Positions 1 to 27,842 of a stretch of 33,479 nucleotides of DNA are shown here, piece after piece. This stretch comes from a virus, in the IMG/VR virus record IMGVR_UViG_3300048065_000269, positions 1 to 33,479 of that record; one strand, written 5' to 3'. Under the pieces are notes generated by a model that was given only the letters and a program-made list of their open reading frames with translations, was not told where the DNA came from and made no database searches. The position numbers and the translations under genes were made by a program. Numbering within the stretch: the stretch's first letter is position 1; each line of letters begins with the position of its first letter.

Positions 1-1673
1 CACAAGCAAACACAATGCAAGCTGCACAGGCGGCTCCTGCAGTAGATGCGGCTATGCAAGCTACACAAGCTGCACAAGCTAACCCACAAGACCCACGTGC
101 GCAAGTAACTGCTGCACAACAGACTGCCTCATCAGTAGGTAATCTACAAGCTGCGCAGGGCAATGCTTCTCTTATTAATAATCCAGTACAACGTCAGATA
201 CAACAGGGTGAGTTAATTAGTGGTGCTGCTGATGCGGCTACTGCCTCTGCCTTTACTGCACAAGTTCAGGCTGCACAGGCTACTCCATCACAACAGGCTA
301 CTGTACAGGGACAGCTTGATGGATTGATGCAGCAGTTCCAAGGGGGTGCTACTCCAACATGGGCTGCTGGGGCAATGAGGGCTGCTACAGCGGCTATGGC
401 TGCTCGTGGCTTGGGTGCTTCATCTCTTGCTGGTCAGGCTATTGTACAGGCTGCTATGGAATCAGCAATACCTATTGCACAGGCAGATGCTGCAACACAG
501 GCACAGTTTGAGGGTCAAAACTTATCTAACCGTCAGCAACGTGCGATGTTAGCAGCACAACAACGTGCGCAGTTTATGGGTCAGGAGTTTGACCAAGAGT
601 TTCAGTCACGTGTACAGAACTCTGCACGTATTGGTGACATAGCCAACATGAACTTCACTGCTGAACAGCAGGTACAGCTAGAGAACTCACGTGCTGTGAA
701 TACAATGAACCTAAATAACCTGTCTAACTCACAGGCAATGGTTATGGCTGAAGCATCTGCATTGGCACAGTTAGACACGCAAAACTTAAATAATAGACAA
801 CAGACTGCCGTACAAAATGCTCAGTCATTCTTGCAAACAGATATGGCTAATCTATCTAATCAGCAACAGACTGAACTGTTTAAATCTCAACAACGTGTGC
901 AGTCTATGTTTACAGACCAAGCTGCTAAAAACGCTGCAGCGCAGTTTAATGCATCAAGTGAGAATCAAGTTGACCAGTTCTTCCAGCAGCTTGGTTCTCA
1001 AGTATCACAGTTCAATGCGACACAAGCTAACGCACAGGCGCAGTATAATGCAGGTCAAATTAACACAGTCAACCGCTTTAATGCTGAACTGAATAACCAG
1101 CGTGACCAGTTTAATGCCAACAATCAAATGGTAATTGCACAAAGTAATGCGCAGTGGCGTAGACAAATTGCTACAGCAGATACTGCAGCAGTTAATCGTG
1201 CTAATGAATTAAATGCTAATGCTATCTTGGATATCAGCAAAACTGCATATAATAATTTGTGGAACTATTACAATGATACAATGGAATGGGCGTGGACTTC
1301 TGCTGAAAATGATAGCGATAGAGTTGTGCAGATGGCATTAGGAGAGTTATCCGCTAAAACAAGTATAGATATGCAAAATTTAAAAACTAACGCAGAAGAA
1401 AGTGGTGCTATTGGTGGTTTCTTTAGTAGTTTATTAACTAGCCCAACAGCAGGAACTATTTTAGGTAGCATTTTTTGTTGGGTAGCCAGAGAGGTGTATG
1501 GTCCTGCAAACTATGATTGGGTTTTATTTAGGGAATGGATGTTAACCAAAGCACCAAAATGGTTATTACAGTTATATAAAACCCATGGTGAACAATTTGC
1601 TAAATTTATTAGTGATAAACCTAGAGTTAAAAAAATAATAAAAATATTGATGGATAAGGCTATAAAAAAATGA
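1..1673 (+). CDS. Gln/Ala-rich virion protein, 5' end outside window (partial)
   Basis: The frame is already open at the first base, and the first ATG (position 15) has no Shine-Dalgarno sequence, so the gene almost certainly begins upstream. The visible ~555 residues are two-part. The first ~420 residues are very rich in Gln, Ala and Asn, with loose heptad-like repeats built on NLSNRQQ / NLNNRQQ / FNA-Q, typical of elongated helical phage structural proteins. The last ~90 residues change character: a Gly/Ser-rich hydrophobic segment (GGFFSSLLTSPTAGTILGS) leads into a Trp/aromatic-rich tail (CWVAREVYG..., FREWML, HGEQFAKFISDKP). I have seen that tail at the C-terminus of other marine phage virion proteins, but I know no named family for it. 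The stop overlaps the next start (ATGA). Likely a virion, ejection or tail-associated protein; exact role unknown. The A+T content rises sharply from about 1200 onward. Confidence 0.75.
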   Translation, partial: QANTMQAAQAAPAVDAAMQATQAAQANPQDPRAQVTAAQQTASSVGNLQAAQGNASLINNPVQRQIQQGELISGAADAATASAFTAQVQAAQATPSQQATVQGQLDGLMQQFQGGATPTWAAGAMRAATAAMAARGLGASSLAGQAIVQAAMESAIPIAQADAATQAQFEGQNLSNRQQRAMLAAQQRAQFMGQEFDQEFQSRVQNSARIGDIANMNFTAEQQVQLENSRAVNTMNLNNLSNSQAMVMAEASALAQLDTQNLNNRQQTAVQNAQSFLQTDMANLSNQQQTELFKSQQRVQSMFTDQAAKNAAAQFNASSENQVDQFFQQLGSQVSQFNATQANAQAQYNAGQINTVNRFNAELNNQRDQFNANNQMVIAQSNAQWRRQIATADTAAVNRANELNANAILDISKTAYNNLWNYYNDTMEWAWTSAENDSDRVVQMALGELSAKTSIDMQNLKTNAEESGAIGGFFSSLLTSPTAGTILGSIFCWVAREVYGPANYDWVLFREWMLTKAPKWLLQLYKTHGEQFAKFISDKPRVKKIIKILMDKAIKK

Positions 1674-24528: not shown

Positions 24529-24705
24529 TTACCCCTCATCTGCCATTGTCATTATGAAACCAGTCAGGCCACACGCCGATAGCGCAAGGCACATAATTGA
24601 TGCCACCATGTGTTCAGAGTGTAGCAGTATAAACGACACAAAGAAAAACAGTAGGCACATACCTAAACCAATAGACATCAAAATAAGTTTATCAAACATT
24701 TTCAT
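24529..24705 (-). CDS. Small two-span membrane protein
   Basis: The ATG at 24705 has AGGG five bases upstream; the TTG-started longer frame to 24741 runs into the structured RNA-like hairpin and is unlikely. The 58 residues comprise two hydrophobic helices (LILMSIGLGMCLLFFFVSFI and HMVASIMCLALSACGLTGFI) and a short acidic end. It is the first gene downstream (leftward) of the 514-base non-coding stretch. Confidence 0.6.
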   Translation of the reverse strand: MKMFDKLILMSIGLGMCLLFFFVSFILLHSEHMVASIMCLALSACGLTGFIMTMADEG

Positions 24706-25219
24706 TATTTCCCTGTACTGATAACGATAAGAGATAGGCAAGGGGTGCAGTGCCTTACTGATCGCCTACGATTGCGCCTTCCGACAGCGCACCCCTCTTT
24801 TTTGTAGCTGTATCTGATGCAGATACTACACCACAAAAATATGTAGGCAGTTTAACCACTTGCCTAGGTGTCTTCACACCAAAAGGTGAGGGGGTTGCAC
24901 ACTGACCATTTACGCGAATTATTCTTCCACCCCTAAGTCACGCGACCCTGTATTTATACTGTTAGGCCTTCAGTCGCATAGCTAAAGAACACTCACCTTT
25001 AGGGCGTTGTTGATTAGCTACACTTCCCTAGTGTACCCACCTATTAAGGCAAGACAATAGGACGATGAGAGCCTGTTTTCGTGGGCGTTGGTGCATATTC
25101 TGCACAACCAGCTTGTCACGTTAGGCCAGTTAATTTCTGCGAGGGCTAACCATACCCACCTACATTTAGTTTTGTGTCGATGTAGGCTTAACCGTGTTTA
25201 TACTCACCCGACAATTTTT
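24706..25219 (-). ncRNA. Gene-free, hairpin-dense stretch; candidate structured RNA
   Basis: No plausible ORF. On the likely transcribed (minus) strand I count at least seven perfect stem-loops: CCTACAT/ATGTAGG (25158-25185), GTGCA/TGCAC with GTT/AAC extension (25087-25108), TACACT/AGTGTA (25019-25035), CTAAAG/CTTTAG (24982-25002), GGTGT/ACACC (24867-24880), AGGCA/TGCCT (24844-24865), GTATCTG/CAGATAC with TGTA/TACA extension (24803-24830), and the branched element at 24741-24796. This density is far above that of neighbouring gaps. Could be a leader RNA, a free-standing non-coding RNA or a regulatory DNA region. Not matched to a known RNA family by eye; no tRNA T-arm is seen. Confidence 0.4.
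24741..24806. other. Branched four-stem element with adjoining T-run
   Basis: Outer stem AGGGGTGC/GCACCCCT (24741-24748 with 24789-24796) encloses three small hairpins: CAGT/ACTG, ATCG/CGAT (loop CCTA) and CGC/GCG, the first and last competing slightly with the outer pair. CTCTTTTTT follows on the plus strand, giving a terminator-like look in that direction, although no rightward gene precedes it. At 56 nt it is too short for a tRNA. Confidence 0.4.
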
Positions 25220-25819
25220 TTATGCCATCTGCATGACAGCAGTGACATGATACTTGCTTACTTTTTGTGCCGTGTCAAGTGCTTTGTTTGCACGATTGCC
25301 AGCCACATATGCACACCATGAATCCCACCAGTATTGCGAACCACCAGTGTCAATAGTCAACTGCACATAGTCGGCAATCTTTTTGAGTTTCAATTCGTGC
25401 TTGATGCCCTTGGAAAATTTGAGTGCAGACCTAGACAATCCAAGCCTATCGCAGTTATGGCTATCAATACACGCCACGTTAAAGCCTAGCATCTGAGCCA
25501 CAAACGCAGCTTTGACAATGCCAAGGTTAGGCACGTTAGTCAATACATCTATGGCACCGACTACATCATTAGCTTTTACCGCAGCTTTCATAGCGGCATA
25601 CAATACATCTTTGTGTTCTTGTAAATACAAATAGCCGTCACGCTTGTTGCCCCACAGATATTTACTAGACGCACCATTCACGTCAATGTCTAGCATCTGA
25701 TTATGGGTTGAGTGTAGGCTTGCCTGTATTGTAGTCAAAACAAACGTAGCCATTCGCACCAGATTGTCAGGGTTTTTGAGTGCAAACCTAGCAATCTTTT
25801 TGTTGTCTGTAGCGTACAT
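25220..25819 (-). CDS. Helix-hairpin-helix-like protein (DNA glycosylase-like core)
   Basis: A 199-residue protein; GAGGTG five bases before the ATG. The central block VLTNVPNLGIVKAAFVAQML then GFNVACIDSHNCDRLGL reads as an HhH motif (VPNLGIVKA for LPGVGxxxA) followed by the conserved Asp region of HhH-GPD DNA glycosylases (CIDSHN for xVDTHV). The tail QYWWDSWCAYVAGNRANKAL is typical of a marine phage family I recall. The catalytic Lys of bifunctional glycosylases is not evident. Likely DNA-binding; base excision activity is inference. It stands alone between two non-coding stretches with one other gene. Confidence 0.6.
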   Translation of the reverse strand: MYATDNKKIARFALKNPDNLVRMATFVLTTIQASLHSTHNQMLDIDVNGASSKYLWGNKRDGYLYLQEHKDVLYAAMKAAVKANDVVGAIDVLTNVPNLGIVKAAFVAQMLGFNVACIDSHNCDRLGLSRSALKFSKGIKHELKLKKIADYVQLTIDTGGSQYWWDSWCAYVAGNRANKALDTAQKVSKYHVTAVMQMA

Positions 25820-26339: not shown

Positions 26340-26409
26340 GCGCACAAAGTTATGGGGCAACAATAAATATCTGACACGTTGCCTAGCATACCGTTGCCCC
26401 ATTGTTTTT
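26319..26409. promoter_or_regulatory. Three-segment alternative-pairing element (attenuator-like)
   Basis: Segment A CCCCATAAC (26319-26327), segment B GTTATGGGGCAAC (26349-26361) and segment C GTTGCCCCAT (26393-26402). A pairs with the first 9 bases of B; C pairs with the last 10 bases of B; the two pairings exclude one another. On the plus strand the B-C stem is followed by TGTTTTTG, as in a terminator. On the minus strand the same elements lie in the region just upstream of the 124-aa gene. Confidence 0.45.
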
Positions 26410-27010
26410 GTGTTCTTTCATCTCAATTTTCACCCGCCTTGCTAGGGCAGTTTTTCGCACATAATTGCAGTAGCGGCATATCCAAGGATAGCTAGGGCAT
26501 TTGCGTTTTGTGTAGTTATATTGAGTTTGTATATAGATTTTTTCACCGCCTTAGATGAAGTCCCCGCAGCACCGTGCGGTATGGCTAGACAATATACAAA
26601 ACTAGCCTGTTACATTACGCCCCTTTACAATTGGAGTTGGGATTTCCCTTGCTGCCCTTGTCGATCATACACTATCTGCCTTGGTAGCTAGTGCTGTAAT
26701 CCGACTGGTTGCGTCAAGTTATGACCACCCTTCGCCCGTGTATAGTCCACACATGGTATCGGTTCGCTAGGCTATCGGTAGTTTGACCGGTCTTTGCCCT
26801 CTGTTTTTTACTAGGTGACACCTAGGCGGGTTTTATACAAGCAATGTTTGCCGCGCTTGTTTTCAGTCTCATTAGGCTATTCTAATTCACTTCGTTAGTC
26901 AATCAAAACTTAACCCGCTGGCATCGTATCTGGCTTTGTCTCACCTTGTAGCTACCCCAAGGGCTTGTCGCTAGTGATTAGGCTGTTGTCGTTTCGATGC
27001 TTAGAGATTG
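26410..27010. other. Hairpin-rich non-coding region
   Basis: No ORF of credible quality on either strand. Perfect stems include CCGCA/TGCGG (about 26564-26580), GGCTAG/CTAGCC (26583-26607), CACTA/TAGTG (26668-26693), CGGT/ACCG (26776-26789), CTAGGTG-A-CACCTAG (26811-26825), ACAAGC/GCTTGT (26837-26860) and CTAA/TTAG (26882-26898). GCTAGGGCA occurs twice (26441-26449, 26490-26498), and TTTTCACC(C)GCCTT occurs twice (about 26427 and 26541). Candidate large structured RNA or regulatory/attachment region; no known family identified by eye. Confidence 0.4.
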
Positions 27011-27637
27011 CCTGAATAATTTATTGAAGTCAAATGCTAATGTTTTCAATGTGTTAGCAAAGTAGGGTCATTGATTTTATTAGATAAATTGGCATTTGGT
27101 GGCTTGAATTATTTTCAAAATAAACAGATTTATTTTACATCTCTTTGTTTTCATTGAATAAATTAGAACAATTATTTTTTGTGATGGGGTAGTATTGTTT
27201 TATTTCAATGACTTAGCAATTTTTTGTTTTATATATATTAAAGTATAGGGTTTATTTTGTGCATCGTCCTTTCGTTTTGTGCCAATTTTTGAGACTTTGC
27301 CCTTTTCACTGGCTGTTTCAAAAGGCAATTGATAGGTGATCACTTGCTTTTTTAACATTTATTCTGCAAAAACAATGCTTTACCCTTTATTCTGCTTTAA
27401 TTTTGATAAAAACGTCAATTTTTGAGACTAACTATCGAATTTTGTTGCGGGTAGGCAGGGGCCACGCCCCCCAACGTAGTATATATATACATAGAAATAC
27501 ACAGATTAGGTAAATTGACTGTTAACCACAAGGGCAATAGACAACTACTCATGCTCAAGTATTGTGCAACATGCCTAAAAAATAGGCAACTAGGGTGGGC
27601 ATAGGGACTATTTTATATATATATATGTAAAAGGGGG
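27011..27637. other. AT-rich intergenic region with direct repeats; possible replication origin
   Basis: Between divergent gene blocks. The sequence is markedly A+T-rich from about 27030 to 27430, with long T-tracts. Direct repeats: CAATTTTTGAGACT at 27283-27296 and 27416-27429, and TTTATTCTGC at 27358-27367 and 27386-27395. Alternating TA runs occur near 27480-27490 and 27615-27627, and a TGCCTA-AAAAA-TAGGCA hairpin near 27570-27586. This layout is what phage origins and control regions often show; no direct evidence of initiation. Confidence 0.35.
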
Positions 27638-27666
27638 TTGACAGGCATATAAAATTCTGGTATAAT
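27638..27666 (+). promoter_or_regulatory. Consensus sigma70 promoter, rightward
   Basis: TTGACA (27638-27643), 17-base spacer, TATAAT (27661-27666): a perfect match to consensus at perfect spacing. The predicted transcription start is near 27673, about 170 bases before the first rightward gene. It should be recognised by the unmodified host polymerase and is probably the main promoter of the rightward operon. Confidence 0.85.
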
Positions 27667-27682
27667 TACTTATAACTAGAAC

Positions 27683-27786
27683 ACACTAACAGTGTACACT
27701 AAAGTGTTTATTACTTAAACTATAAATACACTTAAATAAAGCATTTAAATGAAATTATATTTTTATTGCTAATACACTAAAGTGCA
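27683..27786. promoter_or_regulatory. Operator-like inverted repeats ACACT/AGTGT downstream of the rightward promoter
   Basis: ACACT-AAC-AGTGT (27683-27695) abuts ACACT-AA-AGTGT (27696-27707), making a nested AGTGTACACT palindrome. A third, slightly degenerate copy, ACACT-AA-AGTGC, lies at 27775-27786. They sit at about +10 to +35 and +102 relative to the predicted start, a natural place for a repressor. No repressor gene is recognised in the window. Confidence 0.5.
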
Positions 27787-27842
27787 ACACCTAAGTGACT
27801 CCCTCATACATAACTAATATCTGTGCTTATTAAAGAAAGTTC

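Follow-up and report, generated by a model that had tools for sequence, protein, structure and literature searches.

Structured non-coding RNAs borne by phages include the GOLLD and ROOL families, which are known near tRNAs, extend over hundreds of nucleotides and each form one conserved unit. Phage T4 encodes RNAs C and D among its tRNAs, small stable non-coding RNAs whose function is unknown, while bacterial chromosomes contain REP elements, simple palindromes that are repeated behind stop codons and serve as barriers at 3' ends. Here we describe an intergenic stretch of a marine phage that holds several small elements, among them a double pseudoknot (module A) and a much shorter H-type pseudoknot (module B). 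Module A resembles GOLLD and ROOL in being structured, non-coding and phage-borne, but it is only ~90 nt long and matches no Rfam model. Compared by description only, it shares with T4 RNAs C and D its small size and its location near phage tRNAs (36 of 93 loci); we know of no description of a double-pseudoknot fold such as that of module A for the T4 RNAs. Module B and REP are both repeated structured elements behind stop codons, but module B is a pseudoknot with zero copies in 190 alphaproteobacterial genomes, whereas REP elements are chromosomal palindromes.

Type III antitoxin RNAs form repeat arrays beside a toxin gene (PMC5086642). Those of ToxI and CptI are H-type pseudoknots similar in size to module B, which is itself sometimes found in tandem. 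In contrast to the antitoxin arrays, however, module B lies behind unrelated phage genes and is mostly single (191 of 221 loci among the matches listed, with up to three copies per locus), and module A is single-copy. In the gene 32 mRNA of phages T2 and T4, an H-type pseudoknot upstream of the start codon binds gp32, and NMR shows its two stems to be stacked coaxially (PMC3014915). Coaxial stacking would also be expected for module B, but this element is found behind the stop codons of many genes and not before a start codon. We found no description of module A or B in Rfam or in the literature within reach of our search, which left out most subscription papers.

Genomic context and organization of the stretch

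The window, that is, the whole 33,479-base record analyzed, encodes a DNA polymerase that shares 75% identity with the enzyme of Puniceispirillum phage HMO-2011 and 65–67% with those of Roseobacter phages CRP-345 and CRP-1. On the basis of these identities, the record is classed as an HMO-2011-type marine phage, and its host is probably an alphaproteobacterium. The stretch 24706–25219 is flanked by two minus-strand ORFs, one at 25220–25819 (199 aa) and one with a likely start ATG at 24705. It had been predicted to be gene-free, and indeed only short, unsupported ORFs cross it; a coding role was rejected for want of a supported ORF. The original prediction of at least eight perfect hairpins was reproduced on the minus strand, where stems of ≥5 Watson–Crick pairs with loops of 3–10 numbered 8 compared with 3.28 ± 1.87 in 300 shuffles, 8 of which reached this count. 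With stems of ≥6 pairs, there were 4 hairpins compared with 0.85 in shuffles (6/300 as high). Folding energy likewise differed from that of shuffled sequence, as had been anticipated (z = −2.19 for the minus strand and −2.53 for the plus strand). This excess of hairpins and energy is real yet modest, and energy by itself is weak evidence. The accompanying statement that gaps elsewhere in the genome span only 0–60 bases was mistaken, as positions 26403–27842 (~1.4 kb) contain no ORF of ≥60 aa. That region lies between divergent gene blocks, is low in GC (0.32 around 27.5 kb) and is a possible origin or promoter region.

An RNA of the GOLLD/ROOL kind had been put forward for the stretch, and a covariance search of Rfam gave no match at the gathering score across the whole record and only noise around 24706–25219 at E values up to 10. 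In relatives, modules A, H, Y and B (Table 1) are found apart from one another, differently ordered and located elsewhere in the genome, which rules out a single unit of the GOLLD/ROOL type. For this reason, the stretch is best read from its relatives as an array of separate small RNA modules and not as one large RNA; the modules would be co-transcribed, independent of one another and shuffled among phages. The first ~95 nt of the stretch are the main part common to several contigs, which carry relatives of the flanking genes. The broader expectation of a useful, structured and conserved RNA read leftward was upheld by the conserved modules in relatives and by minus-strand U-G pairs, while for a recombination site, another of the options raised, no evidence was found.

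Table 1 Features of the stretch 24706–25219
Feature	Coordinates	Strand	Description	Evidence
Module A	25125..25214	-	~90-nt double pseudoknot	Covariance model match, pair counts, tree-null covariation, P3 complementarity
Module A P1	25209-25213 / 25175-25179	-	UGUCG / CGACA	
Module A Pa	25205-25207 / 25194-25196	-	GUG / CAC	
Module A conserved segment	25187-25193	-	GGUUAAG	
Module A P2 (crosses P1)	25182-25186 / 25159-25163	-	CCUAC / GUAGG	
Module A P4	25155-25157 / 25143-25145	-	GGG / CCC	
Module A P3 (crosses P4)	25147-25151 / 25128-25132	-	GGUUA / UAACU	
Module H	24973..25034	-	CTAGGGAAG...ATGCGAC stem-loop element	Recurs in relatives; local fold z -2.65
Module Y	24875..24972	-	Block of ~100 nt, conserved, flanked by H and B	Conservation in L247, L294
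Module B	24844..24870	-	~27-nt H-type pseudoknot; S1 CAC/GUG, S2 UAGGCA/UGCCUA, loop 3 GUUAAAC	Recurrent motif, nearly fixed spacing, covarying S1 and S2
Long hairpin	24799..24839	-	U-run/A-run ends	MFE z -5.1; inverted repeat I1
Module C	24741..24796	-	AGGGGTGC...GCACCCCT stem around small arms	Inverted repeat I3; z -2.6
CTTATCGTTATCAGTACAGGG element	24711..24731	-		Conserved in L001, L052, L093, L111

Structure and covariation of module A

A pattern made from the invariant bases of module A matched at least 119 IMG/VR stretches. The matches listed comprised 99 distinct sequences, nearly all with the full architecture of P1 (NGUCG/CGACN), a small and variable inner hairpin Pa, P2 with an A-rich third loop, and P4 (RGG/CCY) crossing P3. 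With 28 of these 99 sequences as its basis, a covariance model found one match in each of 93 fetched loci, including the window (78.3 bits, E 4.5e-17). Although module A is the most conserved element of the stretch, it gives no minimum free energy signal (z = −0.23) because it is a pseudoknot.

Across the 93-sequence alignment, 99.4% of the cells in the stems pair, and changes on both sides of a stem numbered 145, compared with at most 10 for structures in which the partner strand had been slid by 1–3 columns. Because the model used to fit the alignment pairs Pa and P2 but includes neither P1 nor P4, the signal for the latter two is independent of the fit. Covariation was evaluated against a tree null in which substitutions are re-dealt on the tree, a simplified version of R-scape. 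Column pairs 2-81 (P1) and 71-98 (P2) exceeded every null value, and these two together with 72-97 (P2), 8-61 and 9-60 (both Pa) had E values of ≤0.015. P1, Pa and P2, including the P1–P2 pseudoknot, are supported by covariation, and the compensatory changes in relatives whose absence would have counted against an RNA are present in module A. Covariation is weak for P4, where pair 102-124 shows the expected pair types (GC in 73, AU in 8 and GU in 8 sequences) but a tree-null E of about 8. The position of P3 differs between groups, with a mean longest Watson–Crick run of 4.41 compared with at most 3.23 when partners were shuffled. U-G pairs occur at P2 73-96 in 45 sequences; as these would be A-C on the opposite strand, module A is read leftward in the window. 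Together with the tree-null covariation, they rule out a DNA palindrome or chance as its source.

The stems frame a core of unpaired bases that hardly varies (GGUUAAG, AAA and UCA..AGAAA), with about 25 invariant positions. Columns 7 and 76, which look unpaired, switch between A/A and G/G (77 and 10 of 90 sequences, respectively) and perhaps form a non-canonical pair stacked on P1. The invariant GGUUAAGC is identical to the first 8 bases of Escherichia coli 23S rRNA. The rRNA continues GACU...GGUGG, and so does module A when the P2 strand is skipped. This match may be due to chance, and we treat it as a lead kept apart from the evidence.

Distribution and genomic neighbourhood of module A

The loci carrying module A fell into 13 groups when at least three shared proteins were demanded; grouping by any one shared protein was uninformative, yielding one component of 91. 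Exactly one copy was present in each of 17 whole records of 8.6–153 kb (the largest of 152,719 bases), and three related whole records had none. All 82 tRNAs within 2.5 kb of module A in the 93 loci are on the module A strand, and 36 of the 93 copies have a tRNA no more than 300 nt away, in some cases at a distance of 0–9 nt. Copies behind a tRNA follow its end by 2 to 31 nt, the closest at 2–3 nt (L052, L053, L058, L093 and L111), while others are 0–8 nt before a tRNA (L065, L074, L099, L105, L122, L134 and L149). Ten copies, including that of the window, start 5–7 nt past a stop codon. Some are 9–30 nt before a start codon, and these could act as leaders. A leader of one particular gene, as had been suggested, is not what the relatives point to, since the gene before or after module A varies between phages. 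Its neighbours encode a Cas4-type exonuclease, a primase/helicase, phrog_11903, a kinase-like protein or a tRNA, and the 199-aa family precedes module A in the window and follows it in L017.

Permuted tmRNAs are encoded near module A in L057, L128 and L139 (tags ANDNFAPVAAAA, ANDNFAPEFALAA and ANDNFAPVEYANAA), one of the three being confirmed by the Rfam alphaproteobacterial tmRNA model. Rfam scans of 16 relatives returned tRNA and tmRNA models only, all of them for neighbouring genes and none for module A, ruling out a known RNA family. An origin as a host gene was also rejected: 289 alphaproteobacterial genomes gave no match, in a search run without a positive control, and a single GTDB contig scored. 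The latter is a 38-kb contig of a metagenome-assembled genome (L170), possibly a phage; 20 other pattern matches in GTDB contigs were chance-like. Among the sequences and regions of cultured phages searched, none carried module A: blastn of its variants returned short chance matches only, the early regions of HMO-2011, CRP-345, HTVC033P and CRP-1 gave no match, and the parts of phiM12, phiN3 and HTVC008M that were tried gave nothing above noise.

Three further elements recur behind module A. A structured-looking GCACC..CATTTATA..GGCTCTGC..AAGGGTGATGCCTTAATACATCCGCGTGGGGCCAACGGTTAGCCCCAC element is right behind it in many contigs, among them L096, L107, L108, L110, L112 and L118, a CTGGGAATGGTCCGTTCGTCCAG..AATTAAGGAACGC element follows shortly behind it in L063, L076, L088, L092 and L132, and a ACAGGGGCGGACAGTAGGAAGAGGCGACTAATGTATAAG..GCGGCCTGCAACCCCTCAAACTGC element is located between module A and the next gene in L085, L089, L123, L128 and L161.

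Module B at the ends of phage genes

A pseudoknot scan anchored on AAACT was too loose (98 compared with 74 in the control), and fixed patterns were used instead. The pattern CCTAGGCAN{4,9}AAACTGCCT matched at least 119 IMG/VR stretches; among the matches listed, the gap was 7 in 117 of 128, and the bases outside the pattern form the second stem, the first three S1 pairs being 97–99% Watson–Crick with AT/TA/CG and GC/CG/AT/TA exchanges. An alternative S2 pattern (TGAGCA/TGCTCA) retrieved at least 120 further stretches, with S1 pairs 99–100% Watson–Crick among the matches listed. The two S2 patterns and the S1 exchanges together show that both stems of module B covary.

Among the matches listed, 68 units have a stop codon in reach upstream, and in 62 of these S1 starts 4–13 nt past it, with a peak at 5–6 nt; this placement is also seen ahead of long downstream gaps and of converging genes. 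The genes upstream show little relationship to one another. Module B recurs in hundreds of phage contigs (examples are L199, L212, L223, L354, L345 and L350), with tandem copies in L093 and L111, and in some cases a tRNA begins 5 nt after it. The module B of the window differs from most of its relatives in lying inside an array, with the nearest stop codon some 350 nt upstream. Stop-codon readthrough was ruled out, as the spacings fall in all three frames and the upstream genes are diverse. Module B is also present in IMG/VR record 2518645515, which is related to Lactobacillus prophage Lj965 (88% DNA identity); Lj965 itself has a changed copy with an apparently broken second stem. Given its position behind the stops of unrelated genes and its presence in this relative of Lj965, module B seems to be a marker of gene ends across phages of very different kinds.

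Proposed roles of modules A and B

From what was observed for both modules (structure, strand, distribution, copy number and position), we infer their transcription, excision, binding partner and effect as follows. The account that we consider somewhat more probable than all others together is an array of independent modules in which A is a single-copy, stand-alone gene for a trans-acting non-coding RNA and B is a cis-acting barrier at mRNA 3' ends. Module A would be transcribed within an operon or tRNA cluster and probably released by the same enzymes as process the adjacent tRNAs and mRNAs; once excised, it would fold as a compact double pseudoknot exposing its almost invariant core, whose most likely partner in trans would be the translation machinery or a protein of the host or the phage. 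A stand-alone trans-acting RNA gene is suggested by the one copy per genome, the changing neighbours, the shared strand with tRNAs and the large invariant core. For the small pseudoknot B just past stop codons, repetition and position behind stop codons argue for an action in cis at message ends, most likely as a barrier.

A part of the evidence could also be read as module A acting in cis, as a knot that terminates a gene or tRNA and either keeps exonucleases from the upstream RNA or directs its processing. About 20 loci in which it starts 2–9 nt past a tRNA end or 5–7 nt past a stop are consistent with this, and module B provides a precedent for phage pseudoknots at gene ends. We nevertheless consider it unlikely, because a barrier of general use at RNA ends would be expected in several copies, as B can be, whereas A is found once per record even at 120–150 kb; moreover, about 25 invariant unpaired bases exceed what a barrier needs, and many copies are far from any upstream end. 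The close association with tRNA ends also bears on a small ribozyme that would cleave itself and thereby separate tRNAs or messages, for which a double pseudoknot with a dense invariant unpaired core directly behind tRNA 3' ends (as in the five contigs with the closest spacing) would be suitable. However, no Rfam ribozyme model matched, the variable distance to the tRNA end and the single copy per genome do not fit, and we regard this as improbable.

A special case of trans action, in which module A would bind and block a host defence protein that targets RNA, as a decoy or in the manner of an antitoxin, appears quite unlikely. Type III antitoxins fold as H-type pseudoknots with A-rich loops, module A accompanies tRNAs across unrelated phages, and phage TE escaped ToxIN by means of a pseudo-ToxI (PMC5086642). 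Yet the antitoxins are tandem repeats, such strong sequence conservation would be unusual in an arms-race decoy, and no ToxN family member was found in 25 records, in a search whose control genomes gave no match either. Least credible, and in our view barely plausible, is a riboswitch or structured leader for the downstream gene. The conserved core is aptamer-like, and in one contig group module A is always followed by a ~375-aa gene of one family (phrog_11903), mostly at 3–60 nt, but elsewhere the downstream gene differs as described above, so that a constant association with the genes of one pathway is lacking; there is no constant expression platform, and a tRNA is often directly next.

Extending the preferred account of a trans-acting A and a cis-acting B, we tentatively propose, with somewhat less than even confidence, that phages of aquatic bacteria share two undescribed small RNAs, of which A would act in trans on the translation or RNA machinery of the host and be as portable as a tRNA, and B would label message ends generally, in phages of very different kinds. 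Phage genomes are packed, yet a 90-nt RNA present once per genome is kept across unrelated phages with dozens of invariant bases; it must therefore do something worth its space. If A acts on translation or defence, it would represent a new route for phage control of cells, while B would be a very small and very common RNA element behind phage genes and a candidate stabilizer or terminator part.

Minor elements of the array

Module H has an altered stem with pairing kept in L001, L247 and L294 (GCUAA/UUAGC in the window, CUAGG/CCUAG in these relatives). The block spanning modules Y and B is 92–96% identical in L247 and L294, where it adjoins a different gene. No homologue of the long hairpin was found, and module C has look-alikes in L006 and L160 with no clear homologue otherwise. 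The element nearest the downstream gene, TTATCGTTA(T/C)(C/T)AGTACAG, precedes sigma70-like promoters (TTGACA...TATAAT-like) in L111 and L129. From this arrangement, it is probably a DNA element before the next gene and not an RNA, and possibly an operator of these phages; it is also present in Roseobacter phage CRP-1 (L194:5093).
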